DNA from: Mytilisepta virgata
Lineage: Eukaryota > Mollusca > Bivalvia > Mytilida > Mytilidae
Length of the DNA stretch: 64,000 nucleotides
Direction of reading: 5' to 3'
Assembly (NCBI GenBank): GCA_028015205.1
Contig: CM051514.1
Location: forward strand, 21,282,150 to 21,346,149
Part shown: piece after piece, positions 2,739 through 57,700 of the stretch
Layout: the number at the start of each line of letters is the position of its first letter
Position numbering within the stretch: the first letter of the stretch is position 1
Notes under the pieces: model-generated
What the model saw: only the letters and a program-made list of their open reading frames with translations
What the model was told of the DNA's origin: nothing
Database searches by the model: none
Translations under genes and position numbers: made by a program

Positions 2739-2813
2739 TCTTGTTAAATTTTATTATTGATTTGTGTCTTTTGTTGGCTACAATTTAAAGGTGATTTCGG
2801 CCGTAACAGAAAT

Positions 2814-2831: not shown

Positions 2832-2897
2832 GAACGTTCATATCTTATTAAATTTTTTCAGTATTTTTATTAGAATTAGCCAACAAAATTCTACAAA

Positions 2898-7526: not shown

Positions 7527-7613
7527 AACACTGTATACATACTATATATTTCTGTATATATTGTTCATGAAGTTCTCGTTACACTCAAACTTCTTTTAAG
7601 GGGGGGTGGGGGG

Positions 7614-8920: not shown

Positions 8921-8929
8921 TTTTTGTAA
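8315..8929 (+). pseudogene. gag: gag N-terminal fragment
   Basis: Same ATG context and the same three early TAA codons (8342, 8378, 8441) as the complete copy, followed by the coiled-coil-rich gag segment. The frame ends at the deletion junction at 8927-8929, which is LTR sequence. No zinc knuckle or pol remains. Confidence 0.8.
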
Positions 8930-10613: not shown

Positions 10614-10770
10614 AATGAGGAACCAGAGTGAGTTATCTTTTCCTAACCAATGTCTGTAAGGGAGATAATTAAATTCTCTCCCTTTTGTCCTGAGGCTAAA
10701 AGGGAGACAAATTTATTATCTCCCTTACCTACATTGGTTAGGAAAAGATAACTCATTCTGGTTTCTCATT
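10614..10770. mobile_element. 157-bp foldback MITE, copy 1
   Basis: An almost perfect inverted repeat: left arm AATGAGGAACCAGAGTGAG..., right arm its complement, meeting around a GTCCTGAGGC-type centre. Arms contain CCTAACCAATG and AAGGGAGATAAT. The same element is at 25032-25186 and 56703-56859. It is non-coding; the RNA would form one long hairpin. The class of transposase that would move it cannot be told. Confidence 0.85.
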
Positions 10771-12843
10771 ATATCATTTATGTCTATCTACATGTCCACT
10801 TACCTCTCTAATTCACAGAAATTGGTTATTTCAATTTGTTACAATATGCAGGGTAATTTCAAATTTGGGGAATGGGATTCGAAGAAATAATTCCCATTTG
10901 ATGTGTGTGTATTACCCCATATACATCTAATTATGGTTGAAAAATGTGCTACGAACTGGTGTTGGCTATGAAAGAGATTGAAAATTAGTTCAGAGTGGAT
11001 TTTGCAGCTGTACTCGCATTTAATTAACTAATTAACCAATCACAACACGAAGATAACATTATAGCGAATCATATTCTTGAATTTTTAAAACAAAACATAT
11101 GAGAATATTTAACTTTATCAATTTTTATGCATACGAAAGATAAGCAGACGTGATATAGTCGTCACGTCACTTTAAAAGATAAATCTCTGATATTTATGTC
11201 TAAAGAAATGAACAACATACATGTATTTCCGTGTTATTGATGGCCCGTTTGCTCCCCCGGACACGCATTTGCAATTGCAGTTATATGTATAGGGTTGAAA
11301 TTTTGAATAATGAATAAATATATAAATAAAAAAGATTTATTTAAAAATTCTAATAAAACATCTTGAAATAAATTACCAGCGAAGTTGATCAATTAATGCT
11401 CTGAATGATGCTTTGACGTCTCAATTTTACACCAAACAAAGTTAATCGTTACTGTCAAAGTTTATCGCCAGCTGTATAATACAAGATATATATCGAACAT
11501 TATAGAGCTAGTTCCCAATGTTTAAAATAGTTATGAAAACTAATGGCATTGTATTTTTGTTTTCGTTGGATACAACAATATATATAAACAAAGGCATATG
11601 TTACCATATATATTTACATTAACTTCAAAGAATCTCATGCACAGTAGATATTTAACAGATTCTCGAGATTTCTGTTTGCACAATTACTGACAGAAATGAT
11701 AGAGACGATTATGAAATCGGTCAATGTAAGCATCTTTTGTACAAGTTTTTCGCATAAAATGTCTTTAGGCCTTTGAGAAAATGCGTATTAATCTTCATCT
11801 AAAAGAGTTGAGATTCCTCTTTTAGATTTGGCATGGCCATGAGACGTCAAATCATGAAGTTTTACATATCAATAGCGCTCTGACGTCCCACGGCCCCGCC
11901 AATTATAAAACAGGTAGTTTGACTTAAGAGTGATCTCAGATACGTAAAATTCTGATAAGTAGCTACTCTGGACAGAATCTGCAAATATCTGTTTTATACA
12001 TGAAGTGCGTTCTTACGTCCCACGGCCAAAGTCAATTATAAAACAAGACGTTTGACGTCGGAGGAATATTGGATTATTCTAGAACCCCGGCATATCCCTG
12101 GAAAGCTAGAATCACAAAAACTGCTCTAGCAATAGAATTAGCCTGGGATTTATATTAAAGTTCAGGTAACCTCAACTTTGCCTACATGGGTAGTTGATAA
12201 ACTTACTTTTAAAATAATTGCAGAAATTTATCAAGTGGAAAGATTTCTGCAGTCACATGCTACATAGAGAATACATGATGGCAAACCAACGTACTTAATA
12301 TTTCAACTTTTGTATTCTATTAATCTTGACGATATAATGAAAGAAAATTTTGGCGTTCTGTCAAATGATCGTTTGAATCATCTGGTAAAAATTTTGTCTA
12401 GTGTAGCAGTTTTAAAGCAATTTTGGTCATAAAAATATACCAATAATTGTTACTTGACGTTTTACTACAGGATCAAGGGTTTGAAAAGAATGCCGTTTTG
12501 TCCATTTGAAGCTAAAAAGGTTTTTATACGAACACTATAATTTCAATAGAAAACAAGCTAGACATTCAGAGAACAGTCTGCATAATAAAAAATTAAACGT
12601 GTTTCAAGTGGGGTGGGGGGTAAAAACTTGTAAACCTGAACTCTAGTGCCTATTCTATGATATCTTAAGGTCATTTCATAATGATGGATTCAGATACAAA
12701 ACTTTTGTTTTTCCGTAGGAACTGATAATTCTTCTGATAATCCAGAACTTAAATTCATAATAGTGCCTCACAAATACTTTCGACTTCTGTAAAATTTAAG
12801 GAATTTATATAATTAAATTATAACCATTTATATTATAGTTCAT
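10771..12843. other. Non-coding stretch with two diverged direct repeats
   Basis: Nothing gene-like seen. Short related segments around 11876-11915 and 12005-12050 share ACGTCCCACGGCC and AATTATAAAACA, so a small diverged duplication is present. Confidence 0.4.
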
Positions 12844-14160: not shown

Positions 14161-15778
14161 ACAAGAGGCTCCTAAGAGCCTGAATCGCTCACCTGTTACT
14201 TTTTGTGTAAATCTTGCATCAATGATTAGTTTCGCCTTAATAATTATTGACTTGTACAGCTAAAATATAGAATCCAGAACCCAAATATATATGGTTTCTA
14301 TGGACTTTTTCATCGGTTTCTATAGACTTTAACTGGTAAATTGTAGGGTATATGTGGTTGCTAGGGACTTTTCAATCGGTTGCTATGGATTGACCCTTTG
14401 AGCCTCCATATTGACTTGTACAGCTATATTGGAGGGTCCTGAATCTAAATATGTATGGTTGCTAAGGACCTTTTCAATGACCTTGACTCTTGACCGTTCT
14501 TTTTGACTTTAACTGGTAAATTATAGGGTCCCATATATATATATGGTTACTATGGACTTTTTTATAGGTTGCTATGGACTTTTTCAAATAACTTGAACCT
14601 TGACCCCTCCCCCACCATTTTACTTGTACAGCTACCATTTAATTTATTTCAAGTTATGCTCTAAACATCTGTGACAATATGTCAGACCATAATTTTTACT
14701 GATAATTACTGTTTACATGTAAATAATCGTTCAAGGGCAAAAAAAACAAAAAAAGGCGTCAATTGAGGATTTTGGTCATGTTGAATTATTTGTAGATCTT
14801 ACTTTGCTGAACATTTTCACTGTTTACAGCTTGTCTTTATCTATAATAATATTCAAGTTAAAAAAAACCCTTAAACTGCAAACTTTCCTTAAAATTAACA
14901 ATTCAGGGGCAATTACTCAAAAATGGGTTGACCGATTCGTCTGAAAATTTTATGGTAGCTAGATCTTGACGTCATAAACATTTGATTTCCTGACAGTTTT
15001 GCTCTAACTGCTTTAGTTTTTGAGATATGAGCGAAAAAGTGCATTTTTCACCTTTGTTCTATTTTAGCCATGGCAGCCATGTTTATCGATGGACAAAAAA
15101 AAAAAAAAAAAAAATAAATAAATAAAACACAGACTTTATACTAGATACCCTAAGGACTTTCAGCCTACATTTGGATGGAATTGGGTGTAGTTTCAGGGGA
15201 GAAGATTTTTGAAAGATTACAAAGATGACAAAAAAATGTGAAAAATTGTCTTTAAAGGGCAAAAACTCCTATAAGGGTTCAATAAAAGATTTTGTTCTTT
15301 TAACTTATTTGTAGATCTTACTTTGTACAACATTTTTGCTGTTTAAAGTTTGTCTTTATCTATAATAATATTCAAGTTAGTAACCTAAAACCGCAAAATT
15401 TCCTTAAAATTAACAATTCAGGGGTCATAACTCAACAAAGGGTTGACTGATTCCTCTGAAAATTTGATAGCAGGTAGACCTTGACCTGATGACCATTTTT
15501 CATTTGTCAGTTTTGCTCTAAATACTTTAACTTTTGAGATATGAGCCAAAAACTGCAGTTTACCCCTATGTTCCATTTTTAGCCATGACGGCCATGTTTC
15601 TTGACTGACAAGAAAATAAAACATAAATTTTATTCTAGATACACCAAGGATCATTCAGACTATGTATGGCTGTAATGGGTTCAGTGGTTTCAGAGGAGAT
15701 CTTTGAAAAATATTACGACAGACAACGGACACCAAGTGATGGCAAAGGCTCGCATGTCCTTTTATGACAGGTGAGCTA
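14161..15778 (+). repeat. Repeat family R1, full-length-looking copy
   Basis: Left end ACAAGAGGCTCC with an AGGCTCC/GAGCCT palindrome, then TCGCTCACCTG. Right end has a GACAACGGAC tract, AAGTGATGGCAAA, and CAGGTGAGCTA. GCTCACCTG near the start and CAGGTGAGC at the end are inverted copies. The interior holds diverged internal duplications: for example TTAACAATTCAGGG occurs near 14896 and 15411. No coding capacity. Confidence 0.75.
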
Positions 15779-21475: not shown

Positions 21476-23066
21476 ACAAGAGGCTCACCAGAGCCTGTAT
21501 CGCTCACCTGGAGTCTGGTTTTCATTGGACAATTAATCAACTATTTGACCAAGTTTGTTGCAATTGGTTCAATTGTTCAGGGAAAATTTGTTGAAGATTT
21601 ATATTTCATAAGGTTTAATGTTAAAATATGTTCCCTGATGGTGGTAGTCCTGGCAGGAAGTTGATAAAATTGACCAGGAATAAGGGTGAACCTTAATTAA
21701 ATGTAACAGCACCCAACCTCAAATTACACAAACCAATAACTCCTAAATAGAATTTGGGATTCTCTTCAAAATTTCAGGGTAGGTAGATCTCAACATGGCA
21801 AACATTTTTCAATTTACATTTCACTTCTATCTCAAATACTTTTGGAGATAAATGCAAAAATGTTAAAATTTTGAAAATTTGACCAAAAAAGGGCAATAAC
21901 TCCTAAATGGGTTTTGGGATTTCCTTTAAAATTTCAGGGTATGTAGATCTCAACATGGCAAACATTTTTCAAATTTACATATCACTTCTATCTCAAATAG
22001 TTTTGGGGATAAATGACGAAAAATGTTAAATTTTCAAAATTTGACGAAAAAAAGGCAATAACTCCTAAATGGGTTTTAGCATTTCTTTCAAAATTTCAGG
22101 TTAGGTAGATCTTGTCATGCTGATCAATTTTACTTCAGTCAGATTTTTGATATTTGTAACGGTTTTTAAGTTATAAGCCAAAAACAACACATGCACCCCT
22201 ATATTCTATTTTTAGCTACGACAGCCATGTTTTATGTCAGATCAAAATAAATTGAGGACCGTTTGTAGAGGACATGTCATAGATCATTCCTATTAAGTTT
22301 CAAACCAATCGGCCTAGCGGTTTCAGAGGAGAAGATTTTTGAATGAAAAAATTTTGAAAATTTGACAAAAAAAGGGCAACAACTCCTAAATGGGTTTTGG
22401 GATTTCCTTTAAAATTTTAGAGTAGGTGGATCTCAATATGGCAAACATTTTTCAAATTTACATTTCACTTCTATCTCAAATAGTTTTGGAGATAAATGAC
22501 AAAAAATGTTAAAATTTTGAAAATTTGACGAAAAAAGGGCAATAACTCCTAAATGGGTTTTGGAATTTCCTTCAAAATTTCAGGGTAGGTAGATCTTGTC
22601 ATGCTGATCAATTTTATCCCATGTCAGATTTTCGATATCTCTAACGGTTTTTGAGTTATAAGCAAAAAACAGCAATTTACGCCTATGTTCTATTTTTAGC
22701 AACAGTGGCCATGTTTTTCATCGGATCATTATAAAATGAGGATCGTTTGTGGAGGACATGTCATATATCATTCCTATGAAGCCTCGATCCAATCTGCCCA
22801 GCCGTTTCAGAGGAGAAGATTTTTGAAAATCAGCCAATCAGAAACAAGAATTGCCTCTGGTGGCCATGTTTCTTGACCAATCGGAACTAAATGAGGAAAC
22901 TTTGTTGAGAACCTTCCATACACCACTCATGCAAAGTTTGGTTGGAAGTGGCCAAATAGTTTCTGAGGAGAAGATGTTTGAATGAAAAGTTTACGACGGA
23001 CGGACGGACGGACGACGGACGAAAAGTGATGGCAAAACCTCACATGGCCTTTGGCCATTAGAGCTA
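21476..23066 (+). repeat. Repeat family R1, long copy with internal ~165-bp units
   Basis: Left end ACAAGAGGCTCACC with GAGCC, then CGCTCACCTGG. Right end has a GACGGACGGACG tract, AAGTGATGGCAAA, CTCACATGGCC/GGCCATTAGAG and GAGCTA. The unit containing GGGCAATAACTCCTAAATGG recurs about every 165 bases (near 21890, 22050, 22373, 22536). The same unit, reversed, is at 9017-9550. Confidence 0.78.
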
Positions 23067-25031: not shown

Positions 25032-25186
25032 AATGAGAAACCAGAGTGAGTTATATTTTCCTAACCAATGTAGGTAAGGGAGATAATAGATTTGTCTCCC
25101 TTTTAGCATCAGGACAAAAGAGAGAATTTAATTATCTCCCTTACCTTCATTGGGTAGGAAAAGATAACTCACTTTGGTTCCTCATT
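25032..25186. mobile_element. 157-bp foldback MITE family, copy 2 (155 bp)
   Basis: Same hairpin as 10614-10770: AATGAGAAACCAGAGTGAG at the left, CTCACTTTGGTTCCTCATT at the right, with CCTAACCAATGTAGG in the arm. Confidence 0.85.
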
Positions 25187-28100
25187 GTATTATAAAATTT
25201 TAACTAAGATGGTACCTTAAATTAATGGACGTGACAATACTTAAAGTCGAATTTATGTAGACATTTGAAGTACGGATTATTTTACCGATATTCTGTATCA
25301 TTTTGACGAGCAAGGTAGTAACTAATTTTGTCTTTAATGCACAGAATATCTTATAATATAACGTTTCCTTAAACTTTTCATACACAATTTTATCTAACTC
25401 GAAAATATGTTCATATGTAACAATATACCTATTTTTCATGACGTTCAATAATTTTTAATAGTAATTTTCCTAAAAAAAAGTACGGAATTTGGGCATTTGA
25501 ATCTAAAACTTGTACTCAAACTAAATAAGTTTTGTTTGACATAACGTATTTTTAAACTCTATATACACTATCTATTATGATTGGTGCGTATACTCCGTAT
25601 CCTTTTAATTTCATGTTTTTCTATCATTTAAAGTGAATAAAATCCATAAATAATAAATTTCCAGATGTCATAAATCTCATTCCCACCAAACCATACGCGT
25701 GTCATACCCAGTAATCAAACAGTATCTTAATATACACAATACTGCATACAAAAGGTCTCATAAATCTATTTTATATAACTATATTTATTGTACAAGTCAA
25801 GATAACAGGAACCAGGAACTATTGTTGCATGTCAAAACACGTACAGCAAAACAAATGTATTTTAAATATTGCTTTAATCAGTGTAATTATCTAGAGTAGG
25901 TGTTACTCTATAAAACAAGATAACACGTGTTTTATTATGTAAACAATGTTTAAGAGGCATAAAGTTTAACATAGATTTTCATATGTTGATACTGATCAAG
26001 AATTGAAATATATACGTATTCCATATCTCATAATCCGTGTCGTGGTTTCAGATACATTTTGTACCATCTAGGGCCATCTGGCATGCTTATGCTTTGTTTT
26101 GATTGAAACATTTAAAAATTAAAACATCAACAGCTCAACACAATTATTTTGTTTCAGTTTGATTTTCAATAAAGTTATAAACTTCAGAATTCGGTCAAAC
26201 AGTTGATAAAACTATCATGTAACCTTTTTGACACACTTGTTTAACATGTCCTTACTCATAATTATGTTCACCCAAAACAACGAAGTGGGGAACTTATTGT
26301 TTTTGCTCTCTTTCTTATTATTCTTCTTTCGCGTAACCTGAAACGGCCCTCGTGTGTTCTCAGAATTGGACAAATGGAATTGAACCAAACTTGGCACAAA
26401 AATAGAGCACCATCTGTAGTTGTGCAACGTCATATTAAGAAATCAAACATGGCCGCCGTTCAAAGTCAAAAAAATAGTTGTAAAAAATATTATAGAGACT
26501 TGATACTTGATTTAAATATATGTCACCACAAGGTCTTTTGATCGGCCATACTGGAAAATCCAAGATGGCCGCCACTCGAAAATTGAAAAAAAATTAAAAA
26601 ATTCGAAAATTTCTAGGAGCCGTAGAAATTGATATTAGAAGCCACTGAGGCAATGGGAACGTTGGGGGAACACCCTTTACGCTGCGAGTTACAACTATAT
26701 CTAGTTTGAAATATGCTGTATATGGATCAATATTTGAAATTCCATAGCATCAAGGCTACACAAGGAAAATGTAAATCTAGGGTCTTTTGAGCTAAGTAAA
26801 AGCTTAAAAATATTGCAGTCAGAGTATTTTCCCTTTTATCTATACATGTGCACTAAAACATTTCTCAATCGTGAATTGATTGAAACCCGATGCAACGTTG
26901 CATGTTCTTGAGGGTATCATTCCCATCGGTATACCTAGTCATTGCTTCGTCTATGGCATGATTTTAGATGCTGGGGTTTAAATTGTCAGCCGATAAATTT
27001 TGAAATTATATTAAAAGTTGCGTTTCAGCAGTTGGCCCTACCTTGATTTTGGAAGATCTGGATAAACAGTTTAGACCCCTTTGGTACTATTGCTTACAAC
27101 TTTGAGCTGATTTTTCGCAATCCTAGTAATCCGACTTCAGTATTTGGTGCGTTAAATGTCCCCGATGTACAGATCTTGACCAGGAGTGGTTATGCGAGGT
27201 CTTCCATTCCTCTGGAGGTATTAGCTGCACCAGTTGATTGGAATATGTTCTACAGCCGCGAACTCTTGCTCTGGTTAACTTTCAGAGTTCGTGCAACTTT
27301 ATTTTGGGACTAATCGGCTTGAAAACGACCGATAATGATATTTCGAAAGGCAGGTTCCATCCTCGGGATGGCAGCATTTCAACTCTATGATAAAATTTAA
27401 TCTTCAAACTAGGTACTTTTATACTCTTTAGGTTAAAAGTTGAATTAACCGCAAAGTGGCTGTGAAAAAACAAAATTTCACGGAGATATATGGGATCTTC
27501 ATTTCATTGTACAGGTGTGGCAGCGAGCGAAAATATAATGAACAGGCATTTAAGTGCTTAAACTAACCTTTATAACATCAACAATTTAAAGTGGTCATTT
27601 AGTTTTACTTTGATCATCCCATTTTTTTCGTTTTGAAAAATAAAATGGGGTTATGGGTTTCTTTTTTTAACAGTATATATGATAAAGCATATAAAACATG
27701 TCAAAATCCGTATCACATGCCGTGCCACCCCTCGACCAATATCCCCGCTCTGGGTGATACGGATTTTGCCATGTATTATTATTCTCTATATGTATCATAT
27801 TGATAGCAAAACTTGTCCACTGTCATGACTGTAACATTTATGTTTCAAACTGACTTCAAAGTTATCCATAATTACCGTTTCGTTATCCCTGACACAGGAA
27901 ATTGTGAAAAATACCGATGTGGATACTTTTTTACATACACAAACGATTTTACCTATAGATCAAATTTCCTTAAAAACAAAATATATGGATGTTTCAGTTA
28001 AATTTTATCTCAAGATATTCGAAAGACGCCCATCCGTTGATAAAATATAGGATTTGAGAAAGTATATCGGTGGCCTATATTAACAATTTGTTTATTTGTT

Positions 28101-31610: not shown

Positions 31611-32486
31611 TTAAAATAATAGAATGGTATTTAAAAAAAAAAAAAACAGCGTATGACGACCTCTTTTTACTGTTCGGATTCTGTTTGTTGGTTGTATGAT
31701 CGACGTTTACCCCGTACAGTAAGGCCACACCAAATGTATTTTTAGTTCTTTGTATTTCGCCGCTCCGATTTTCGGACTTTGTAAATTTTAAGAAAATTTT
31801 ATTTGCCGCTTCATTTTGCTGATAATTTCCCCCAAATTCTTCATTTTTCAAGAAATTAAAAATGAAAAGTGTTCACTCGCTCCTAAAATTTGGTAAAAAA
31901 TGAAAATATTTACTTAAAAATATTTGTGCCGCTCGTAAATTTGATCTTCGCCTGGAAAAAAACTAGTCCTCAAGAAACAAAATTAAAATTAAAACCTCGC
32001 TCGCACCTAGGTTTGCCATGAAAAAACCAAAAGAACTAAAAAACAAATTTTGAGTGGCGTTATCTCCTTCACTTTTACGCTTTCCATTTTATATTTCTAA
32101 CCGACTGTGAGTTGAATATCTAACATAACACGCCACAACGCTAAATACGTGTATATGAAAATAATACTGATATAGCTCAGTATTGAAAAATAAAATTCAT
32201 TAATTGACATTATGAATGAATTAGTAGTCAAACAACTATTTAAAACAATCAATTAACCGATATCTGTAAAATAATAGAATCTACAAAAAATATTTTCTGC
32301 CAATCTGACATATACAAAATGTTAATGAGTCCAACAAAGAAAACCTTGCCTGGCATGTGTATCGTACTACACATATACCTGACTCTTGTTTTTGTATATT
32401 TTGTTATTTGCTGGTTGGCCGTGAATCTGCTGATTTCTGCTATATGTCACTGTTGACATTGTATGTTGTTTTCTGCATTTTTCTCA
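31611..32486. other. Non-coding stretch, nothing recognised
   Basis: AT-rich sequence without a supported gene. Confidence 0.5.
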
Positions 32487-32595
32487 ATCTCCGTCACAGA
32501 GTTCATATCCGTTCCGTACATGCTTCGCAATACTGCACATATTGTGTAGTGGTGCGTAGTGGAACGGAACGGATATGAACTCTGCGCCGGAGATT
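32487..32595. mobile_element. 109-bp foldback element with near-9-bp target duplication
   Basis: Left arm AATCTCCG..CAGAGTTCATATCCGTTCC, right arm GGAACGGATATGAACTCTG..CGGAGATT, about 28 of 30 bases matched. It is flanked on the right by GCATTTCTC and on the left by GCATTTTTCTC, the same bases with two extra T. A 9-bp duplication would fit Mutator-like elements. Non-coding. Confidence 0.7.
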
Positions 32596-32753
32596 GCATT
32601 TCTCTAACCGTACATTGTAACTACTGAAAAACTGTTTATAAACAAGCTGAATAAAGCAATAGCATGCAGTCAGAATTTATATAGTTATCTAGGTCATTAC
32701 TTTTTGCCTGAAGCTGAAGTAACATAAATTAAAAAAATAAAAATAAAATAAAT

Positions 32754-32951
32754 TGTAACAGTAGAGCATGATTTGTCTCCCAAAATTACCTACCGCACCA
32801 ACCGGGGATCGAACCCGGAACCTTTGGTTCAGTAGTCCACCGCTCTACCAACTGAGCTAAAGGAGTACTCCACTAGCGCAGCTAATGGAGGGTGGTTATA
32901 AACCTGTTACGGTTCTATAACTTCTATATTAATCAAGGGAAGCCCGTTACA
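32754..32951 (-). repeat. LTR of the TRIM-like element (3' LTR on the minus strand)
   Basis: 198 bases with ends TGTAAC...GTTACA, which are mutually inverted. Contains the tRNA-like segment and, beyond its 5' side, a hairpin CTCCATTAGC/GCTAGTGGAG. Confidence 0.85.
32792..32866 (-). promoter_or_regulatory. tRNA-like pol III promoter in LTR (tRNA pseudogene)
   Basis: Minus strand A box TAGCTCAGTTGG (32848-32859) and B box GGTTCGATCCC (32805-32815), 32 bases apart as in a tRNA gene. D and T arms fold normally. The anticodon stem is only partly paired and the acceptor strands do not match, so it is not a functional tRNA. It could drive pol III transcription from inside the LTR. Confidence 0.75.
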
Positions 32952-32964
32952 CTTCCCCCACCTC
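32952..32964 (-). promoter_or_regulatory. Polypurine tract of the TRIM-like element
   Basis: On the minus strand GAGGTGGGGGAAG sits directly before the TGTAAC start of the 3' LTR, the position of a plus-strand primer. Confidence 0.65.
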
Positions 32965-33045
32965 AAGAGTCATCGTCCTACGATGACGATATCCAACTTC
33001 AACCCTTTTGCCAACTAGCCCTTTTTGACAACCGTGGGTTTTTTA

Positions 33046-33056
33046 GTTGGGCGCCA
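33046..33056 (-). promoter_or_regulatory. Primer binding site of the TRIM-like element, tRNA-Lys-like
   Basis: Minus strand TGGCGCCCAAC, one base after the 5' LTR end. Animal tRNA-Lys(CUU) ends GTTGGGCGCCA, an exact 11-base complement. The match stops after that, shorter than the usual 18. Confidence 0.7.
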
Positions 33057-33057
33057 A

Positions 33058-33255
33058 TGTAACAGTAGAGCATGATTTGTCTCCCAAAATTACCTACCGC
33101 ACCAACCGGGGATCGAACCCGGAACCTTTGGTTCAGTAGTCCACCGCTCTACCGACTGAGCTAAAGGAGTACTCCACTAGCGCAGCTAATGGAGGGTGGT
33201 TATAAACCTGTTACGGTTCTATAAATTCTATATTAATCAAGGGAAGCCCGTTACA
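33058..33255 (-). repeat. LTR of the TRIM-like element (5' LTR on the minus strand)
   Basis: Matches 32754-32951 except an A/G change in the A-box region and a C/A change near the outer end. High identity implies recent insertion. Confidence 0.85.
33096..33170 (-). promoter_or_regulatory. tRNA-like pol III promoter in LTR, second copy
   Basis: Same tRNA-like segment with B box at 33109-33119 and A box at 33152-33163; the A box has one change (TAGCTCAGTCGG). In the 5' LTR, so transcription from here would run through the internal 106 bases into the other LTR. Confidence 0.75.
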
Positions 33256-36200
33256 AAATAAATAAATAAATAAAGATGTACAACATATTGTTCATTTTAA
33301 ATAAACAAAACCATAAAAAATATGTATTCAAAATTTCAAGGTTTGAAGCGAAACTAAATTTCAGAAATAAATAACGGCATACTATGGTTTGTTGGGAGAT
33401 TTTACCACGGATGCGTCTTCTTTTTACAAACAATTTACCCTGGGGAGATAAATAAAGCAGCCTGGAAATTTTACCTAGGTTTTGTTCATATGCCGATTAT
33501 GAAGACATCATATTAGAATAACGACTAAAAGTTTAGATGCATAACAGACATTTTGGAAATAAATTTACCTTGAGATATAACTCAAGATTGAAATCTATCT
33601 CATTTAAAAAAAAAAAAGGATTAAAAATCTCGCTATATTTTATCAGTCTTTATGAAATATTTTTTCTTTAGTGCAGCAAAATAATCCAACACAACTTGTT
33701 TATGAATTGTTGATGTCTTTAACAGCAGTTGATCCTCTGAGGTCACACCCTTCAAGTCAAAGACCAGGTCGTACTTTATCTCAAAAACTGAAAAATGATT
33801 TCTCATTTCTCTAACGCAAAAGAAAGTTGACGGAAAGTAAGGGAAAATTCTTCAGATCTTAATTTGTACTGTTACGTTGATACAATTTTAACTTCTTACC
33901 GGAGTTATTTACCCCTTATTAACGGACAGAACATAGGAGTCATTTACAGAGATCTTTGTGATATAAGCTTTGTTTCATCGTTGAAAACCGCTTTTGCCAA
34001 ATGAACCTTTCTTTCCACGACATATACCCGATATATTGTAAATGTTTAAAGAACAGCGAATGTCGCAACTGTTAATCCAGGGGGGTACAACAGATCTATA
34101 TTAGCGAATGGGGCAAAAAGTTCATAGAAAACATACTATCTCTTTTACTGCATCTTTTATTACGATATGAAAGAAGACTAATGGTTAAAGAAAAAGCAAA
34201 ACGAAAAGATACATAAAACCGCAGTAATATTGAATGATTTCGGTGATCGTAAAGAATACAGTTCTTAATTGATTGATATATTGTTACGTCTGTGTGTCTT
34301 TCACGATAACCACCAATATAGCTCTATAAAATATCTATTTTTTAATCGTTAACGTATAAATCAAGGCTATCTCTAAACACATTTTCAATTCCTAGTACCA
34401 TTTTAATCTTTCTATATAATTAGGTTTGCACGTCTAGCTCTGATACTTTTTACACTCCCAAATTTGTTATTGCTCGAGGTCGTGGTTGGGATTATTCTCT
34501 TACTCCCTAAAGAATTTCCATAGCCATTTAATAAAGTTTAACTAATGATAAGTCAGAAAAGCTAAATAGTTTGGTAATTGAATATTAAATAGTTTACGGA
34601 TTGATCCAATTTGATATTTCGGTCAGCTTATTGTTCATGGCCAAACATGAAATTTGAATTAAACGTAATACTGGTCGAAAAGAAAATTGGAAATTCCAAG
34701 ATATAATATTCTTACGAGTCAAATAAACTTGATCTAGGACAAATTTCTACTACCCGTTCCGGAGAGAAATACGTCGTAATTTTGCGAATACGATTTGCGT
34801 CAATTCATCCAAGGCCATTTTAAAAACATTATTTATTTGTTGGTTACATGACATTAACCTAAAAAAAAGCTTTTGTACAGAGACCAATCTGTCTAAAGTA
34901 TTGTAAAAGACCATATTCATGATATTAAACCTGGTTATGACATTGAATACATTTGATCCAAAATATATACCATTTTGTCTGTTTATCTAAACTCTTTTAC
35001 AGCCAAACGTATTTGCCCAATTTTGAACTTGGCCAGTAAGCAATTGTTTCTGACAATATCGTGCGTATATAATCGGTTATCGTACTTCGAACATGATCTA
35101 ACCGATAGGTCATAAAAAGGACCACAACAGTCAGTAAAAATTTGTATGGTAACTTCGAAATTTTCAGTTACATGTACTCTTGTTTCAAAAAGATCAGTTT
35201 CATTTAACCAAACAATTTTTTTCCCGGGTTCCACCATACTGCAAATCTAAATTATGGTATTGTGAATGTCGAACGTGCGGGCGACGGGCAGGAAGAATTT
35301 GGTACCTTTCTTGTGTAATCAATTCCTTCCACAGATTTTTAAACCCACATCTTTGAAACTTTGCAGAATGTTGGTGCACACATTAGAGTTGTGCACGAAG
35401 AAGTATCATTTCGATTGAAGAATGTTTTCAGGCTTTTCCATATTATTGAACTTAGAAAATGTTGCAATAATTGTTTGCGTAGGTTACCAATTTTGTACAA
35501 TCAACTTTTAACCCAGATCTTTGAATCTGTACATAATGTTTACGAACATATTGAAGATGTAGGAAGGAGTATGATGTCATTTGATTTCTATGTTGTAGAG
35601 ACTTAAAACTTTGCAGAATGCTTAATCGTGTTATAGATGTACATGGGTAGTATACCATTTGCAGAACTTTTTACATGTTTTTCACTAAAAATGTATTTCC
35701 CCCAAATATTCTATTATACACACAATGTTTTGACTTCAATGTCACATTGATTGTGTTACTGGTTATTTTAAGCCTACCTATGGCATGTGACCCTTTTATA
35801 AACACAACCTGGTCTATTTAGTCTTTGACCAATTTTTAAACGAAAAGCGTATCTTTGCGTTTTAGCCATCATTTGGATCACCCAATTTGAATGTATATAT
35901 ATATATAACACATTGTACAATTTCAGTTTATGTGAATTAGTTGCACACTTTATACATGTGTATTATTCAATTGCATTTTAATTGGTCCCGGCAATTCTTG
36001 AACCCTGTCACTGGAAAGGATTGTCTTACAAATCAGCAATATAGGTACTTTGATTATTTCTGGTACTCAGCACTTTTCTACAAAAAATTTCCATTTAGTA
36101 AAGTCGAAAACGAAAGATCGAGAGATATATTATATTAGGGCTATAATCAGTCGAATTTGTCACAATCGTAAATTCAATTGTAATACCTTAGCAAACATAC

Positions 36201-38795: not shown

Positions 38796-40107
38796 ACAAG
38801 AGGCTCCCAGGAGCCTGAATCGCTCACCTGGTCCTTAAGCTTTAAGGGAGTCTTTCATGAGCTATTACCCATATAATGGATCATCTGACAACTTCGACCC
38901 AATTCAGACTTTTGTAGAGCTCAATGAGCTGATTGTTTAAGCAAACAACAGCTTTTCTCTATCGACAATAGTTTTCATTCTATAGGGCAAAAACAAGAGA
39001 AAACGCTATTTTTGACATTTAAAGGGTCATCTATAAGGCATCAACAGTTATTTTGACATTTAAGGGACAAAACTTTAACTCCTAAAGGGCTCATTTAAAC
39101 ATTTTGCAAACTAAGAGAAATGCTGTGAAAATGGTCAATTTTGATGTTCTAAGGGGAATAACTCCTAAAAGGAATGATCATACAACTTAATAAGTACAAA
39201 TTTAAAAAAAAATTAAGAAAAAGGGCAATAACTCCTACATGGGTGGTTACATCTTCTTCAAAATTTCAAAGCAGGTAGATCTTGAGGTGTTGAACACTTT
39301 AGCTTCCCATCAGAATTTTGATATCTGTCACCATTTTTGAGTTATTTGCAAAAAACTGCAATTTACCCCTATGTTCTATTTTTAGCCATGGCAGCCATGT
39401 TTTTTTACAAATCAAAAATCCAAACCATAGTTTAGTAGCACTCATGCCAAGGAACAACTACACTAAGTTTGGTTGCAATTAAACTTATGGTGTAAGAGGA
39501 GTTAACGATTTTATTACAATGAATAAAGACTGCAAAAATGGTCAATTTTGACGATCTAAGGGGAATAACTCCTAAAAGGAACGAACCTACAACTTCGATC
39601 CTGTTACAAATTTTGTAGATCTTTGTGTGCCTAACAATATGAAATTTAAATTTTTCAAATTTCCTTTATAGTATCCAAGATATTGAGCTTAATAAGTGCA
39701 AAATTTGGAAAAAATGCAGAAAAAGGGCAATAACTCCTACATGGGTCGTTGGATCTTCTTCAAAATTTCAGGGCAGGTAGATCTTGAGGTGCTGAACACT
39801 TTTACCCTCTGCCAGAATTTTGATATCTGTTATGGTTTTTGAGTTATTTGCAAAAAACTGCAATTTACCCCTATGTTCTCTTTTTAGCCATGGCGGCCAT
39901 GTTTTTTTACGAATCAAAAATCCAAACGATAGTTTTGTAGCACATATACCAATAAACAACTGTACGAAGTTTGGTTGCAATTGGACTTATGGTGTCGGAC
40001 GAGTTAACGTTTGAAAAATTGTTAACAGACGACGACGACAGACGACGACGACGACGGACGCCAAGTGATGGTAAAAGCTCACATGGACCTTTGGTCCAGG
40101 TGAGCTA
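38796..40107 (+). repeat. Repeat family R1, well-preserved ends
   Basis: Left end ACAAGAGGCTCCCAGGAGCC (palindromic), then CGCTCACCTGGTCC. The right end, after a (GAC)n tract near 40028-40060 and AAGTGATGG, is the hairpin GCTCACATGGACC / GGTCCAGGTGAGC ending GAGCTA. The two ends are inverted copies over about 14 bases. Interior duplications with GGGCAATAACTCCTACATGG near 39222 and 39725. Both termini are the cleanest in the window. Confidence 0.82.
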
Positions 40108-41755: not shown

Positions 41756-43016
41756 ACTAGAGGCTCAGAGGGCTTAACCTGTATCGCTAACCTGACATGA
41801 AAGCCGGTTTTACTGATGTACCTCAAAGAGAGAAGTCACTTCTCCCTCTCATTATGAAGTGTGGTAAGCCTTGTCGGGACCAACCTTTTCTACATCAAGG
41901 ACCTTCTACTTACAGGTCAGCATATTCCAAAATTCAGCGGTTCTCCAGAAGATTTTTGCAAGTATTTCCCATTAGGTCTTATGTCAACCTGGGTCCTCTG
42001 CAAATAGCCATCTTGAATGAGGGATTGGTACCAAAGTAACAACACTTGGTCAGCACCTAATGAAGAACATTCAGGCCATGTTTGGTTTCAAGCGATTCTG
42101 CTGTTCTGTAGATTTTTGTTATAAGCCATAGACACTTTCTGTCAAGTTTAGCTCTATTTAGCCCAGCAGTTTCAGAGAATTTCTTTTTTTAAATTAGACA
42201 ATCAGAAACAAAAATTGCCCATGGCAGCCATGATTATCGCCTTATCTGGACAAAACGAGGAAACGTTATGAAGGACGTCCCATATATGCTTCATGTCAAG
42301 TTTCGTTCCATTTGGCCAAGCGATTTCAAAGGAGAAGATTTTTTTTAGCCAATCAGAAACAAGAACTGGCCATATTTGTAATCCGATCAGGAAGAAATGA
42401 AGAAATTTTGTATAGAACCTCCCACAGGTGCTTCCTGTCAAGTTTCGTTCCATTTGGCCAAACTGTGTCAGAGAAAAAAAAATAAAACAATAAATCAGAA
42501 ACAAGAATTGCCCATGACAGCCATGCGTGTCGTCCAATCAGGATGAAAAAAATAATAATTTCATATAAGACTTTCCATAGATGCTTCTTGTCAAGTTTCG
42601 CTAACAGTTTTGGCAAAGTGGTTCCAGAGATTTTTTTAATCAACAAATGAGAAACAAGAATTGCCCATGACGGCTATGTTTATTGCCCGATCATATGAGG
42701 AAACTTTGTAAAGAGCCTCCGATAGATGTTTCCTGTCAAATTTTGTTCCATTTGGCCAGGCGACTTCAGAGAAGAAGAATATTTTGTATCAGCCAATGAG
42801 AAAAAGGAACTGCCCATGGTAGCCATATTTGTAGTCCGATCGGGAAGAAATGAGGAAACTTTAGAAAGGACCTGCCATATATGCTTCCTGTCAAGTTTCG
42901 TTCTATTTGGCCACACAATTTCCGAGAAGATTTTTTTTTATATCTGCCAATCAGAAATAAGAACTGCCCATGGCGGCCATTTTTGTAGTCTGATTGGGAC
43001 GAAATGAAGAAACTTA
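41756..43016 (+). repeat. Repeat family R1, diverged copy with ~150-bp internal units
   Basis: Left end CTAGAGGCTCAG then TATCGCTAACCTG. The unit with AATCAGAAACAAGAATTGCC and CAAGTTTCGTTCCATTTGG recurs near 42208, 42352, 42492, 42649, 42806 and 42953. The right terminal hairpin is not recognisable, so the right limit is approximate. Overlapping short frames on both strands follow the units. Confidence 0.6.
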
Positions 43017-48419: not shown

Positions 48420-48776
48420 TCAAAGGAATGACACCTTTTGAATGGACAAAAAAGGTACCTTTTCATTGTCGTCTGTCATTGTGACGCTAACACCCGAGTC
48501 CGAGACCTCATTGTTAAAAGAATGTTTATTGACGATATTACTTCCGTTTTGGTTTAGTTCAGTTTCTGATATTTCTTTGTTGTCTATATCGTTGCAAATG
48601 CTGTTGGATGAATCTTTTCCTTTTAATATTGGCAAAGAACTTTTTCGTTTTTCGGAAGTTGGCGAATCTTTCCCAGAAGAAGAATGAACCGACATTGTCC
48701 GAGTAGACCTTGTTGACACCAAACTTTGTCTCCGAAGCATATGCATTCGCCAGTGTTTCATGATTTCTGTTTTAAC
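48420..48776 (-). CDS. Receptor exon 13: cytoplasmic tail and stop
   Basis: Acceptor ATTAG, then VKTEIMKHWRMHML (helix 8), a Ser/Thr-rich tail of about 100 residues with likely phosphorylation sites, and TGA at 48422-48420. Confidence 0.93.
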   Translation of the reverse strand, partial: VKTEIMKHWRMHMLRRQSLVSTRSTRTMSVHSSSGKDSPTSEKRKSSLPILKGKDSSNSICNDIDNKEISETELNQNGSNIVNKHSFNNEVSDSGVSVTMTDDNEKVPFLSIQKVSFL

Positions 48777-51700
48777 CTAATAACAAAATGCAGTTCTATT
48801 ATTTTAAAGTGATAGGAAACATTTCATTAAGAATGTTTAAGAATGTTTATGGTGTTCATGTTCGAGTTGTTATTCCATTGAACAGATTATGTTGGATGTC
48901 CTCAATAAAATAGCAGGAATATCATTGAGTTGAATAACAATAACGTTGGCCTTTAGAGGTGAACAGCCTAGGCGGGAAACTGCTTATGGACGAAATATCC
49001 CGCCTGAAAATGTCTTCTTGGCCTATATTTAAAATTTCGGTAGAGACAAGTTTTTTTCTTAAACAACGCTTTATTAGTTGAGTTAGTTGGATAAAGTATT
49101 GGATGCACTATAGTAATCAGTGTATATCTTTATATTTAGTTCTGTACAGTGATCTCCATCATAACCAGCAATTTTTTAATTTCAAAATTATCAAATTTCA
49201 AAGAATGTATGTCCTTGGCTCCGACACTAGAAAACTATTTATTTTCTATTTCATATTTTTAAATATTTACTTAAAGGCCTTGAGCAACTGCTGAGTCGTA
49301 AATCGACGAAATGTGCACATCTTTTGCATCAAAATTGATATCAAAGAGTTGTTTTTAATGAGGACCACCATCATCAACATTTTATAATTCTACTAGTAAT
49401 TAAAACTATAACATAATATTTATTGATATGATTTCATAACAAATATAAATATGCATAAAAAAGAAATTGATGGATTTTCATTTCATATCCGATTAACATC
49501 CAATTATCTCATTGGTTTGAATGTAGTCATGTGTCATTCCTTCATCTATGAGAAATTATAATGTCTGCCTTAAAAATGCAAAATAAATGGGATTAAGAAA
49601 CCAATACGTCTGACTCGGACAAATTTAAAAATTGAAAAAATCTCTCTGGTGCGAATACCGGACTGTTTAATAATTCAAGGTTATCGGTTTTCTAAAATAA
49701 ACACACGTTATACGTATGAAGAGTGCATAAATAGAATAACATTGACTTCAACATCACACAATGTACCTTCGTCAATGGATCGGGCATAACCAATGTTTAA
49801 GGCAATATTGTTGTTCATGGACAGTCTATATATCACAATAATGCCCTATTCATAAGTAAATTTTATATAATATTAAGTTGAATTATACTCTTATATACGT
49901 TGTATTGATTTTCTGGTAGAAAGTAGTTTGTATATATGTTAAAAACACACTAACATTTGATATGTATATCGTACCTCCCCATTCAGGAAACAAAACAGCA
50001 TGGACACAACAAAGCCCTGAAATAAATTATAAATAGAAGTTCTGAATACAAAAATGTGCAATCATTTTCTGTTAAAAATCCATATTAAAGAATGTTTCTT
50101 TTTTATTTTCTTTTCAGCATATATTGTGTCGGGCATCCAAATGCAGTAAACTAACTTAGATCGTCTTCTCCGGTGAACAATGTTTATTAAAAAAAAACTG
50201 TAGAACATACAAACAGAAATAATACGTTTGATTCCTGCCGATCATCGCATTAAAAGATATAAACACCTTGACTAAAATAAATTTGGCTCGTTTAATTTTC
50301 ATAAAACTTTTAGGAAATATTTACTTTGACCTGTTGACATAAATGTTGATTTTTTTTAGTAAATAGAATTTCACACTTCACGGGAATAATTTCGTTGAAT
50401 ATATGGCAGTTTGGCAAACATCAATTTTGATCATAGAGAAGCTCAATTTCTCTTTACTTATTAAATTAGATTAAAACGCTTTGGTGATTTTTAAGAGTTA
50501 TCTCCATGTAGTGTTGAGTACCACCTTAATGACGGAATTTACCAGCCTATGGGGCAAGTCTAAACCATCGTAGTCCATGAAACTTTGAACTGATGATTAA
50601 TCGCCTGAATAACCGTCATCAAAAAAAAATCATGTAAATGTCCATCTAGCCTGACAATGGAGAAGCTGGAATGAGTAATTTATAGTATATATTTCACCTT
50701 CTCATGGAGATGCCGAGAGGAGTAATTTTTCAATTCCACGATAGGGCCGAAATATTAGCAGCTGAGCTTATTCCACTCTCAAGGACTCGACTTCATATAC
50801 ACAAGTATTTCTAGATCATATTATGGAAACGTCTTAAATGTTTCTTGTATATCACACCTTCTGAAGAGGCTGAGAGCAGTAATTTTTGTAATGTACATTT
50901 CACTTCAGCAGCTAAGCTACTTCTACTTTTAATGACTCGATTTCATATGCAGCGGAATTTCTAGCTGCTGTGAAGGAACATTCCAAATGTTTATCTTACC
51001 TGAAAAGAACTAAAGAACAGCTCAGTGTACATCCATACAATCTCTACCATTGGTTCTAAACATATTGGTATCGCCATGAATAATATATAATGTACTCCAA
51101 AAAGTGGGATTAAAACCAGAGTTGACTTGGCTAATTTTCTGCAAATATAAGGTACAACTATTTTGCTGACTTTGAATTAATGACCACACTGTTTCCATCT
51201 TATATGGAGACTTCTGGGCTACTAGTTTTTGACATAATTTGTTCATAATTAAGGTAAAAAGTTTTACATAGGCAATTAAAATGTATGTCAAATCATGCAA
51301 TAATTAGAATATCTATAACCACAATAATTAGGTAGAATAATGGCATATTATCATGCAAAGCTCTGCAGCAAAAACAGAAAATTACCTATAGCATTTTGGA
51401 TCCCTACTATGTCCTGCTGATAATTTGGTAAACAACACACGTACTATATTGAGGAAAAATCCAAAATTCACCTGAAACAGACAAGGCATTTCCTGAAAAT
51501 CTACATAAACAATAAAAGCTTTTCGATTCGACTTTGACCATGTTTAATTTAAGTGAAAAGAAATTAAATGGAGAAGAATTTGTATGTACAGTATAGTAGT
51601 ATGAAACATCGATTTATGCCTGCATCTTCTGCCGATTGCGTGATGTGATATTGTCTGCAATACATTTCCCAAAACTGCAATCAAATGTGTCTTAATTCTT

Positions 51701-54700
51701 AATGGAACAGCAAAGAGTAATGCAATTATTCAGGAGCATTATTTTACTTTTAAACTTACAAAAATCGATTTGTCTTTCAACCCTTCTTAGATGCAGAAAT
51801 TAGTTCTGAAGTGAAATATTGCACAGATGACAAATTCGCAAAGCTTACAAAGTAACCATGCACTTTTATCGTGTTTTAACATGTATGAAATAAGTAAACT
51901 CACAACTAATGTCGCTACGACTGGTCCTTGTAATATCCAATAGTAACCGTTGTCTGGATTATGCAAGTTCCAGCACCTGGTTAAAAATACATACCGTAAT
52001 ATAGAATTGGTATACTTTATGAAAAATATACGAATTGCCTAGGGCTTCGTCTCAAACACACGTGTTCTTGTAGTACCATTTGAACATATTCCACCTTACC
52101 ATAATGCACATGTATGTACAAACGTATGAGAGAGACATATTTTCAATTCAGTAAAGTGTTTTAACACGTTATTTTGACGTAGCCTTAGACTCTACAGTAT
52201 CAAACACTAGTAACACATCTTTAATCTTATAAATACATACCGTAGTATCAAATTGGTATACTGTAAAATCGGAAATTATTGCGATGTTTTTATTATTGCG
52301 ATAAATGCGACAGGGTTGTAATCGCAATAATTTAAATTCGCATTTTGGATTTTTTTATTTGAATGAAGCGTGATTTTTCTCAGTATCGCAAAAATTTAAA
52401 CCGCATTTTCGTCTAAAATGACAAAATCGCAATAAAAAATGCACGCAATAATTTCTGAATTTACAGTACTATACGAAAAATATACGAATTGCCTTTGGCT
52501 TCGTCTCAAACACACTTTTTCTTGTAGTAACATTCTGGTCATGTTTATTCTTATTATTCCTTGATTTTTTCGTCATCACAAACTCAAGATCAAAATCAAA
52601 AAATGTTGGCTTGTTGAAGAAAAGTTTAGATACGTTCAGAAAAAGTAAAACAAATTATTTCATTCTTAAATCAATGTTATGAACTGGTCTCGAACAGTTT
52701 TGATCGACTGCGAAAACGATATATCGTTACATGTATCTTGATTCTATCTGAATTTTTTAGGACAATGGTCGTTTAAGAACTGAAATGTGTTACTTGTGAA
52801 AGCCTTCGGAATAATTCGAACCTTGAACTTGAACGACAATGAAACATTTCAATTCAATTTTACATCTGTCAGAACAATGTAATAAAGATATATAGAAAGT
52901 AGAAAGAACTCAAATGATAAGCATTTATTTTAATTACTTACAGTGTGTCTTCGTATAGAATTTTAATAGTCACCCACGGCATCACGCATAACAGTGGTGA
53001 AACTAAAAAATATACATTAAAGTCATCACCTGGGATTATATATTGAATTGCAGAAATGATCATGCACTTAGGTACATGTAAAGGTTGGATCATTGGTGTG
53101 AACTTTCACTGGAAAATTGATAATTATGATTTGTAATAACATGAAGGATTCGCTCACATTAACCAAAGGTTCAAGTGAGCTATTCTCATCACTTGGCGTC
53201 CGTCGTCTGTCATCGTCCGTCGTCCGTTAAATTTTCACAAAAATCTTCTTCTCTGAAACTGCTGAGCCAAATAAAACCAACAAGCCGCAAGCATAATTAG
53301 GATATCTAGTTTTAAAAATGTATCCGATGATCCCGCCTGCATGGCTAAAAGGAGAACATAGGGGTAAACTGCACATAGTAAAAATGTTTACCAGGTAAAG
53401 GTCTACCTGCCATGAAATTTTCAGACGAATCGGTCAACCGTATGTTGGGTTATTTTCTCTGAATTTTTAATTTCGAAGTAAACTTTTCCTGTAAAGATCT
53501 CATCTGAAACCACTGGGCCAATTGCGACCAAACTATGGTGGAATGGTCCTGGGTGGCCCCCTTCTCACAATGTGTCCGGAATCCCCTACTTCCAACCGAC
53601 ATGGCTGCTGTTAAAAAAAATAGAAAAAAGGTGGGATTAATTTAAAAAATCTTCTATGAAAGCACTTGACCAATTGGTACCAGACTTGGCCGCAATGGTC
53701 CTTAGGAGGTCCTTTTTTCAGAATTGTATCTGATGACCCGAATTGTTAACTAAGATGGCCGCCACATTCAAACTTATTTTAACACAGGACCCTATGGGAA
53801 AATTTATTTAAAAATCTTCTTGTTTGAAACCACTTAGCAAATTAGAACTAGGTTTGGTAGCAATGTCCTCAGATGGTCCCCTTTCAGAATTGTGTCCGAT
53901 GACTCGGACTTTTAACCAAGATGGCAGAACTTAGTTTAACGTAGTATCCTATGGGAAAATTAATCTTCTTGTCTGAAACTACGGAGCCAATTGGAACTAA
54001 ACCTGGAAGCAATGGCCTTAGATGGTCTTCTTTCAGAGTTGTGTTCGATGACCCGGGTTGTCAATCAAGATGACTGCCACAGTCGAACATGGTTTAACAT
54101 AGGACACTATGGGAAATTCACTTAAAAATCTTCTTGTCTGAAACTACTGAGCCAATTGGAACTAAATTTGGCAGCAATCGTACTTAAATGCTCTTCTTTC
54201 AGAAATGTGTCCGATCACCTGAATTGTCAACCAAAATGGCCACCACAGTCGAACTTGGTTTATCGTAGGATCCTATGGGAAATTCATTTAAAAATCTTCT
54301 TGTCTGAAACAAGTGAGCCAGTTGGAACCAGACTTGGCAGCAATGGTCCTGACACGGTCCTCTTTGCAGCAATGTTCCTTTGATGGTCCTCTTTCAAAAA
54401 TGTGTCTGATGACCCAGACTGTCAACCAAGATGGCTGCCACAGTCAAACTTAGTTTAATATAGGACCCTATGGGAAAATTCATTGAAAAATATTCTTGTC
54501 TGAAACTACCATCGCAATTGGAACCAGACTTGGCAGCAATCGTCCTTAAATGGTGCTCTTTCTAGAAAATGTCCGAAGACCCTGGCTGTGAACCAAGAAG
54601 GTATCCACAATTGAACTTAGTTTAAGATTGGACCCCACGGGTAAATTGATTTAAGGTTCTTTTTGTCTGAAACCACTGAGCCAGCTGGAATAAGACTTGG

Positions 54701-57700
54701 CAGTAATGGTCCTTAGATGGTTCTCTTTTAGAAATGTGTCAGTTGACCTGGACTGTCAACCAAGATGGCTGCCACAGCCGAACTTAGTTTAACATAGGAT
54801 CCTATTAAAAAAACCAGCCAAATTGACTGCTACACTTAAATTTTTAGTCCTGTTCAAGGTGACAAGTTAAATCCAAGCGAGCGATACAGGTTCTTGAGAG
54901 CCTCTTGTTAGTTTTATTGGTATACCGATTCCTGATGAACAGACAAACGTAAATTTAAATACACATGTATCTTTTTGATTATTGAGAAAATTTGATCATA
55001 GTTTGGCTCAGAACAACAATTAGCCTCTTAAATCATTTTATAGAATATTTGAAAGCAATGACGAAAATGTTTTATTTCGTAAAATGAACTCACCCCATCC
55101 GACCAAGATAAGTACCCTAAACATTCTCCTTGAAATGTTGTGGAATGTCGTTATAAATATCAGAGTATGTAGATAAACCCCTTCCACAAAGATCCACATG
55201 TAGTTAGCGATCAGGAAGTAGAAAAACAATGTGTGAACAAGTTTACACCTCCACGACTGAAAAATAACAAATAAACACTTCCATTACTATAAATCAATTT
55301 TTAACAGGTTTACTCCATCAAATCTGAAACATCTTATAAATAGGAGAGTGACGATTTGATTTTTATGATCTCTGTACAACAGCGTCCATCAACGTGGATT
55401 TATTTTTTGGGGCACTTTTACGCGCAACATTTATTGGGGTTAAACTTCACAATCATTTTGATTAATGTCTTTTAAGTTTTGTTCAAATTTTTTCTTGAAT
55501 CCCCTAAATCTATAGGGGCCCATAAGACTATATAGACTGAAATATATAACAAGCAAGCCAGGTTACAATAAAATGTATCACAAAATACCGAAATAAATTT
55601 GATGCAGTGTATGGCCATTTCGTTGACTGACAACTCATCAGCAGTGCTCGAGATCAAAATGTTGGAAAACTGATCATTTATGATTTATTACATTATCTTA
55701 AACGCTGCAAATGAAGATATCCGTTGCTTTTGATATAAAATCCTTTCACTGTAGTATTTAACTAAATGACAGTTAATGTCGATGTCGATATTTTGATTTC
55801 ATTCAAAGACAAAATTCAAGTGTCTCTATCAAGACTTGTCATTAGAATTAGCAAGAATATAAAAATTCGTAGCAAAATATGGAACTCAAAGGGAAATGTC
55901 ACAATCAAAGGCCAAAAACCTGGCTAGTTCAGGAGACAAGCAAACATCCAGAACAACGGGAAAGCAACAGTCATACTCGGGACTTGGTACAGGCATTTTC
56001 AAATGAAAATGGTGGGTTAAAAGATGTTTTACGGCATGACAAACCTCCCACTTATATGACCGTTGCTATAATTCTAGGTTGTTTACGAAAATGAGTAGCC
56101 GTTAAAACAACCGACTCATAAGTCACATCAGGAAACAGTGGTCAACAATCTCAAGGAATTTCATCAAGACTTACATTGCTGATTATCATGACAAAAATTT
56201 ATGTGAGGCAATTATTTAATTCCAACCGCTTTCAACGAGTAGTCTATGCAATTGTCTGACCAGAAATTAAGTCATAGTAAGTGCGACAAGATTAGTATAA
56301 TCTTTTACCTCATCAGACGATTCTAACTGCTGGATCACTTCTTCCATTATATTTGTCTCATCTGCGGGAATTAAGTTCTCATCTTTAAGAAAGCAGACAA
56401 TGCACCGGAAGATAAATGATAGGAATAAGTTAATGTGAATGGTATTTCTTTGGCATCTCAGTTTACTGAAAAATAAAAAAAAAATGAAAGTAGAAGGTAG
56501 AAGGTATTAAGTATAGATGGGATCTAGTAAATTTTGACTTCTTTTGAAGTGTCAATCATTCTACGAATTTACGGAGGCATACTATGGGAATATTAAAAAC
56601 TATTTTGAAACGACAATCAAGTTTGTAAAATATCTGTCCATTCAAAAAGTTTAAAAAATATGTCTCAAATACGCTTCAATACTAATAAGATATGATGAAA
56701 TCAATGAGAACCCACAGTGAGTTAAATTTTCCTAACCAATGTAGGTAAGGGTGATAATAAATTTGTCTCCCTTTTAGCCTCAGGACAAAAAGGAGAGAAT
56801 TTAATTATCTTCCTTACCTACATTGGTTAGGAAAAGATAACTCACTCTGGTTCCTCATTAATATGACAATGGAAAATATATATATCTGTGTTATACTAAA
56901 ATGACAACTCTTTAACGTAACATAGAACAATTAATTCATGCATCGTTCATGATTAACCATGATTATTTCTATTTACATATCCCGTTGGAATCTGGTATAT
57001 AGCTAAAACACACTTAAACGCCTTTTAAATTTTCCGTACAAAACTACAACAAATTTCTAAGGCCCTTCCTTTTGATGCAGAGGTAAGCCTTAGCTGAGTT
57101 TGATTCCTGTTTGTTTTGATGGTTTTGGTTTTTGACGGCTGTGCTTGTTAATTCATCATTATATAGCCGGATTTCCAACATTCTGATCTCGAGCAATGCT
57201 GATGAGTTGTCAGTCAACGAAATGGCCACACAATGCATCAAATTTATTTCGGTATTTTGTGACACATTCTATTAGCAATGGCATCTACTCACAGACATTT
57301 ACAGACACCTTTATATTTTACAAAGCAGATCCTGATTTTGTTATATCCCGCTTTCAGTAAATGGAAGAACAATTTAATTGCTATCAGAGAGTAAACGCAA
57401 TTGACCCACATTTGTTTAAATGTATACTGATATTTAATATTAGCCTTTATTCTTTATTTACAATTACACTCATGATTATACACAAAACTATACATTACAT
57501 TCTTCATTTCGCATTTTATCCACGAGATCATGGCATTTCTTTAACTCACCTGAATGCCGTCATAATGAAAACAGCTATTGACAGAAAAGTTAAGGAGATG
57601 GCATACCCCACTCTGTACAAAGTTTGTATTGAATGCATGTGGCTCTAAAACGAAAATGAAATACATATCTGAGGCCAGTCGTACATAATTGTTGATATGT

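Follow-up and report, generated by a model that had tools for sequence, protein, structure and literature searches.

The 502-bp sequence at positions 32754 to 33255 of the window (the whole stretch of 64,000 bases that was analysed) is very probably a Helenus-like TRIM that carries a tRNA-type promoter in its LTRs, and is likely copied by pol III and likely mobilised by the enzymes of larger elements. The kind of element has been known since 2024, when Helenus was introduced for TRIMs whose LTRs contain a tRNA-derived sequence (Kojima 2024, Biology 13:119; PMC10886601). Helenus is also mentioned in a meeting report (PMC12859917). The first-pass annotation had supposed that tRNA-bearing relatives might already be described, and Helenus answers to that supposition (Kojima 2024). 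The present element fits Helenus by the features given in the published description. It reads in the sense direction on the minus strand of the window, and its main parts are the following.

32754..33255, minus strand (sense): whole miniature LTR element, 502 bp
33058..33255, minus strand: 5' LTR in the sense direction, 198 bp
32952..33057, minus strand: internal region, 106 bp
32754..32951, minus strand: 3' LTR in the sense direction, 198 bp, with 2 differences from the 5' LTR
33046..33056, minus strand: primer binding site (PBS) TGGCGCCCAAC, 1 nt after the 5' LTR; the interior opens with T, followed by the PBS
32952..32964, minus strand: polypurine tract (PPT) GAGGTGGGGGAAG, abutting the 3' LTR
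32750..32753, no strand: candidate target duplication AAAT, one side, in flanks of AAAT-like repeats that match over 8 bases
33256..33259, no strand: candidate target duplication AAAT, other side, in the same kind of flank

Two 198-bp direct repeats with TG...CA ends and two differences, separated by only 106 bases, had been proposed at this locus, and the alignment of the repeats and the letters at their ends confirmed the arrangement. On the sense strand, the LTRs start with TGTAACGG and finish with CTGTTACA. The pair is 99% identical, and the differences are exactly two: A at 32850 against G at 33154, and C at 32921 against A at 33225. With 2 of 198 positions differing between its LTRs, the element is young-looking as judged from its letters. 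A megablast comparison of the window with itself, in which direct repeats of at least 100 nt at 97% identity or more were retained, returned two pairs, the LTR pair and a Gypsy array at 1-8922. In six frames read from stop to stop, open stretches within the element reach 58 codons at most, and its 502 bp without coding sequence lie within the 311-1263 bp given for animal Helenus elements (PMC10886601). With the element masked, blastn at E values up to 1 detected no further LTR copies in the 64-kb window, and the interior gave two short matches of 13 nt (E 0.21) and 22 nt (E 0.72); that a single copy was seen counts against the proposed explanation. A collection of viral contigs contained no exact match to patterns taken from the tRNA-like segment, U5 or the LTR/PBS junction, and a collection of genome contigs contained none to those from the tRNA-like segment and U5. 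Such an outcome is expected for an animal element because the collections consist of viral and prokaryotic DNA.

The minus-strand primer site and the polypurine tract that had been read in the letters are both present, at 33056-33046 and 32964-32952, respectively, and occupy the two ends of the interior as in Helenus. The PBS motif occurs once in the window when both strands are searched, and we take it to be a tRNA-Lys1,2 site. Its 11 nt coincide with the beginning of the PBS of human foamy virus as given in PMC3386198; the agreement stops after these 11 nt, a point that we count against the proposed explanation. The AAAT pair is weak evidence for a 4-bp duplication because the flanks are AAAT-rich and agree over 8 bases, and 71 of the 1369 4-mer pairs taken from the 40-nt flanks match too. 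A chance tandem duplication of a tRNA-derived SINE or a tRNA pseudogene could also place a tRNA-like segment within a short direct repeat, giving a structure that is merely LTR-like, and a single locus was seen here. We consider this origin exceedingly improbable, as it needs the coincidence of TG...CA ends, a PBS 1 nt inside, an abutting PPT and a 4-bp flanking repeat.

The tRNA-like segments and promoter boxes of the two LTRs are located as follows.

33098..33170, minus strand: tRNA-like segment of the 5' LTR, Rfam RF00005 (tRNA), 41.3 bits
33152..33163, minus strand: A box TAGCTCAGTCGG of the 5' LTR, from the consensus scan
33109..33119, minus strand: B box GGTTCGATCCC of the 5' LTR, from the consensus scan
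32794..32866, minus strand: tRNA-like segment of the 3' LTR, Rfam RF00005 (tRNA), 41.3 bits
32848..32859, minus strand: A box TAGCTCAGTTGG of the 3' LTR, from the consensus scan
32805..32815, minus strand: B box GGTTCGATCCC of the 3' LTR, from the consensus scan

Both the Rfam scores and the box scan agree with the earlier claim that each LTR holds a tRNA-like segment with A and B boxes at tRNA spacing. The two segments are the only Rfam matches at gathering score (29 for the tRNA model) in all 64,000 bases. The starts of the A box TAGCTCAGTYGG and the B box GGTTCGATCCC are 44 nt apart, and a pair of boxes at tRNA spacing was found only in the two LTRs when both strands of the window were scanned with our consensus patterns. 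The letters of the boxes also agree with those of animal Helenus, which are TRGCY and YGG for the A box and GGTTC for the B box (PMC10886601). In the Rfam alignment, non-standard pairs occupy four of the seven positions of the acceptor stem and two of the five of the anticodon stem, while there are none among the 4 pairs of the D stem or the 5 pairs of the T stem. The D and T arms house the A box and the B box, respectively, and the combination of paired D and T stems with broken acceptor and anticodon stems suggests that the promoter was kept and the tRNA was lost. ARAGORN at default settings found no tRNA gene (under relaxed settings it made 7 and 8 weak predictions that overlapped one another, and these were left out of the reading), and the folding of the segment was at shuffle level (z 0.35, with 128 of 200 shuffles equally good), so that it looks unlike a functional tRNA. 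In a comparison for isotype, alignment to eight tRNA sequences, with a query 4 nt off the Rfam segment, gave scores of 21 for Phe, 15 for Tyr, 13 for both Lys-CTT and Lys-TTT, 9 for Cys, 5 for Ala, 4 for Thr and -1 for Val. Taken together, the LTR pair, PBS, PPT and boxes support the TRIM anatomy with a tRNA-type internal promoter that the first-pass annotation had put forward.

The tRNA-like segment could serve reverse transcription or packaging, as a primer or a tRNA mimic, instead of transcription, and tRNA mimicry in RNA viruses is a precedent for such a role. Priming of the element's own PBS by the segment was rejected: against the first 20 nt of the interior, the segment attains a best complementarity of 5 nt, and 670 of 1000 shuffles score at least as high. 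The broken acceptor stem also speaks against the wider role. No such complementarity was seen in Helenus either, according to the main text of Kojima 2024 (PMC10886601), and we regard a role of this kind as very improbable.

Signals that bear on the choice of polymerase are listed below for the sense strand.

33200..33206, minus strand: TTTATAA, a putative TATA-like box of the 5' LTR, upstream of the A box and separated from it by 36 nt
33086..33089, minus strand: TTTT of the 5' LTR, a possible weak pol III terminator
32782..32785, minus strand: TTTT of the 3' LTR, the possible 3' end of the genomic RNA

On this strand the element has one run of four or more Ts per LTR and no others, each of them 8 nt beyond its tRNA-like segment. 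Further runs of 4, 5 and 7 Ts are found in the first 23 nt of the flank downstream of the 3' LTR. Depletion of T runs as evidence for pol III was considered and rejected, since shuffles of the body tested, the 300 nt between the two TTTT, also lacked T4 in 652 of 2000 cases for dinucleotide shuffling and in 800 of 2000 for mononucleotide shuffling. Among 1274 stretches of 300 nt from both strands of the AT-rich window, 39 are without T4. As about one third of the dinucleotide shuffles lack T4, the pattern of T runs is compatible with pol III use and is no proof of it. Pol III is able to read through TTTT. The TTTT of the 5' LTR would end part of the pol III transcripts early, and this, together with a TATA-like box equally suited to pol II, is counted against the proposed explanation.

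It is conceivable, and in our estimate unlikely, that the element is a TRIM transcribed by pol II from the U3 TATA-like box, with the tRNA-like part as a passive remnant of a SINE that once inserted into the LTR. Pol II is the polymerase of ordinary LTR elements, and TTTATAA stands at a distance of 36 nt from the A box; the sense strand of the element, however, contains neither AATAAA nor ATTAAA, and the arms that carry the A and B boxes have fully paired stems while the other two stems are broken. We infer pol III transcription from these letters, as Kojima (2024) argued it for Helenus from sequence conservation and likewise calls it unproven there (PMC10886601).

Under the proposed pol III mechanism, TFIIIC would bind the A and B boxes and pol III would initiate approximately 10-20 nt ahead of the A box. 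The polymerase would read through the first TTTT part of the time, continue across the interior into the 3' LTR, and stop at the second TTTT or, as a backstop, at the T runs of the flank. The product would be an RNA of ~390 nt with the tRNA-like segment at both ends, forming the R region. Reverse transcription would then be primed at the PBS by a lysine tRNA, with transfer of the strong-stop DNA from one R copy to the other, and second-strand synthesis would begin from the polypurine tract. Integration by a Gypsy integrase would create a 4-bp duplication. For animal Helenus, 4-bp target duplications are described and Gypsy is proposed as the mobilising partner (PMC10886601).

The window itself contains Gypsy-type sequence. 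Two near-identical stretches of a Gypsy-type retrotransposon lie in 1-8922, approximately 5.42 kb apart and 99.7% identical over 3505 bp. The frames of this array run in the order gag with a protease-like part, integrase, and reverse transcriptase with RNase H. The position of integrase ahead of reverse transcriptase recalls Gmr1-like elements. A fragment of the Gypsy pol matched Solemya velum (a bivalve) at 62% identity over the whole query, the best organism-named match among the 120 of 2164 matches listed; the matches listed also include P0001 (93% over 74% of the query), P0003 (93% over 71%) and sequences of snail, coral, brittle star and catfish. This spread fits a mollusc host without proving one. 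The motif TGGCGCC is absent from both strands of 1-8922, so the array is probably not the partner of the element, and the array is not supported as a Helenus-type partner sharing the PBS.

Several other sequences were observed in the window. An inverted repeat at 32485-32596, approximately 160 bp from the TRIM, has 33-nt arms that are 94% complementary and a 46-nt spacer; it gave only sub-threshold matches to microRNA models and is perhaps a small foldback transposon. Three related copies of ~160 bp (10610-10771, 25032-25189 and 56700-56863) are all palindromic and likely represent a MITE-type hairpin element. Related repeat units of ~140-165 bp are dispersed, some in tandem, at 14869-15698, 21734-22983, 39186-40015 and 42187-43015. 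The minus strand of 48423-59900 contains sequence of a secretin-family (class B) receptor, with Pfam 7tm_2 matches at 55041-55283 and 56270-56506; the frames at 48423-48776 and 59658-59900 within this range had no Pfam match. A seven-transmembrane receptor of the secretin type makes an animal host likely.

The LTRs of the TRIM contain a foldback, made up of the tRNA-like 5' half and an inverted copy directly upstream of it.

33141..33199, minus strand: imperfect 59-nt palindrome of the 5' LTR, centred on GGAGTACTCC
32837..32895, minus strand: 59-nt palindrome of the 3' LTR, placed by LTR register

The first-pass annotation had noticed a hairpin here (CTCCATTAGC/GCTAGTGGAG, 33172-33194). The hairpin itself stands, with 10 pairs, a 3-nt loop and -13.3 kcal/mol (z -4.3, 0 of 200 shuffles), and is better read as part of the foldback, which inverts the 5' half of the tRNA-like segment. 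The inverted copy at 33172-33199 adjoins the tRNA-like 5' half at 33141-33169, and the reverse complement of this upstream arm is identical to the tRNA-like 5' half in 20 of 29 columns. The alignment suggests that the LTR foldback is likely an old, diverged inverted duplication of this half. The palindrome score was reached by none of 1000 mononucleotide shuffles of the surrounding 76-nt stretch, the best self-complementarity of the whole LTR by none of 300 LTR shuffles, and the RNA fold of 62 nt at 33140-33201 (z -3.5) by none of 200, counts that are somewhat flattering because the stretch was picked after being seen. A word search of the main text of Kojima 2024 (PMC10886601) found no mention of a half-tRNA foldback, and the inverted half-tRNA beside the promoter is the one feature of the element that we have not seen described for Helenus.

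The arm GCTAGTGGAG (33172-33181) has two possible partners. Pairing with the upstream CTCCATTAGC keeps the tRNA-like segment free, whereas pairing with CTCCTTTAGC, where that segment begins, places the A-box half in a long hairpin. That the LTR holds a two-state RNA switch built from a tRNA through this alternative pairing is a speculative reading to which we give little credence. With a pol III start immediately ahead of the A box, all three pieces would be transcribed only from the 3' LTR copy. If the switch is real, the R copies at the two ends of an RNA would then differ in their folding and so mark the 3' end, and possible uses would be to guide the strand jump or to prevent tRNA-like action of the 3' copy.

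Reported hosts of Helenus are fungi, plants and six animal phyla, and 51 families come from five bivalve orders (PMC10886601). As described there, Helenus resembles the present element in having A and B boxes within a tRNA-like sequence of each LTR, the remaining tRNA structure being degraded in most families, and a short interior with PBS and PPT, with a total length in the same range. The primers of bivalve Helenus include tRNA-Lys, and some bivalve families have a PBS of this type (PMC10886601). For the element's PBS, the tRNA-Lys naming is our own proposal. The defining property of TRIMp3 is pol III transcription, which is argued from sequence for the element and is unproven for Helenus according to PMC10886601. 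Cassandra, a TRIM described in PMC7215508, likewise carries a pol III promoter from a small RNA gene in both of its LTRs, but this is 5S rRNA in plants as opposed to tRNA in what is likely an animal. In the Rfam scan of the window, tRNA alone reached gathering score, and no 5S rRNA was found in the LTRs. The biv-TRIM of bivalves is likewise an animal TRIM, bounded by a pair of short direct repeats, and differs in having no clear PBS in its description (PMC6934838), whereas the PBS of the element is clear. An inner segment of biv-TRIM, TGATCCCAAAGGAC, is common to all of its host species but one (PMC6934838). This segment is absent from both strands of the element. SINEs derived from tRNA (SINE2) have the same type of internal pol III promoter as the element, but they are mobilised by non-LTR retrotransposons via target-primed reverse transcription (PMC10886601). 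To our knowledge, SINE2 elements have no LTR, PBS or PPT.

The locus provides one clean case of a kind of retrotransposon, described only recently, whose LTRs carry a tRNA promoter. The foldback is a feature to seek in other Helenus families. With all of these signals and one TTTT in each LTR, the element would be a convenient case for examining pol III use by animal LTRs.
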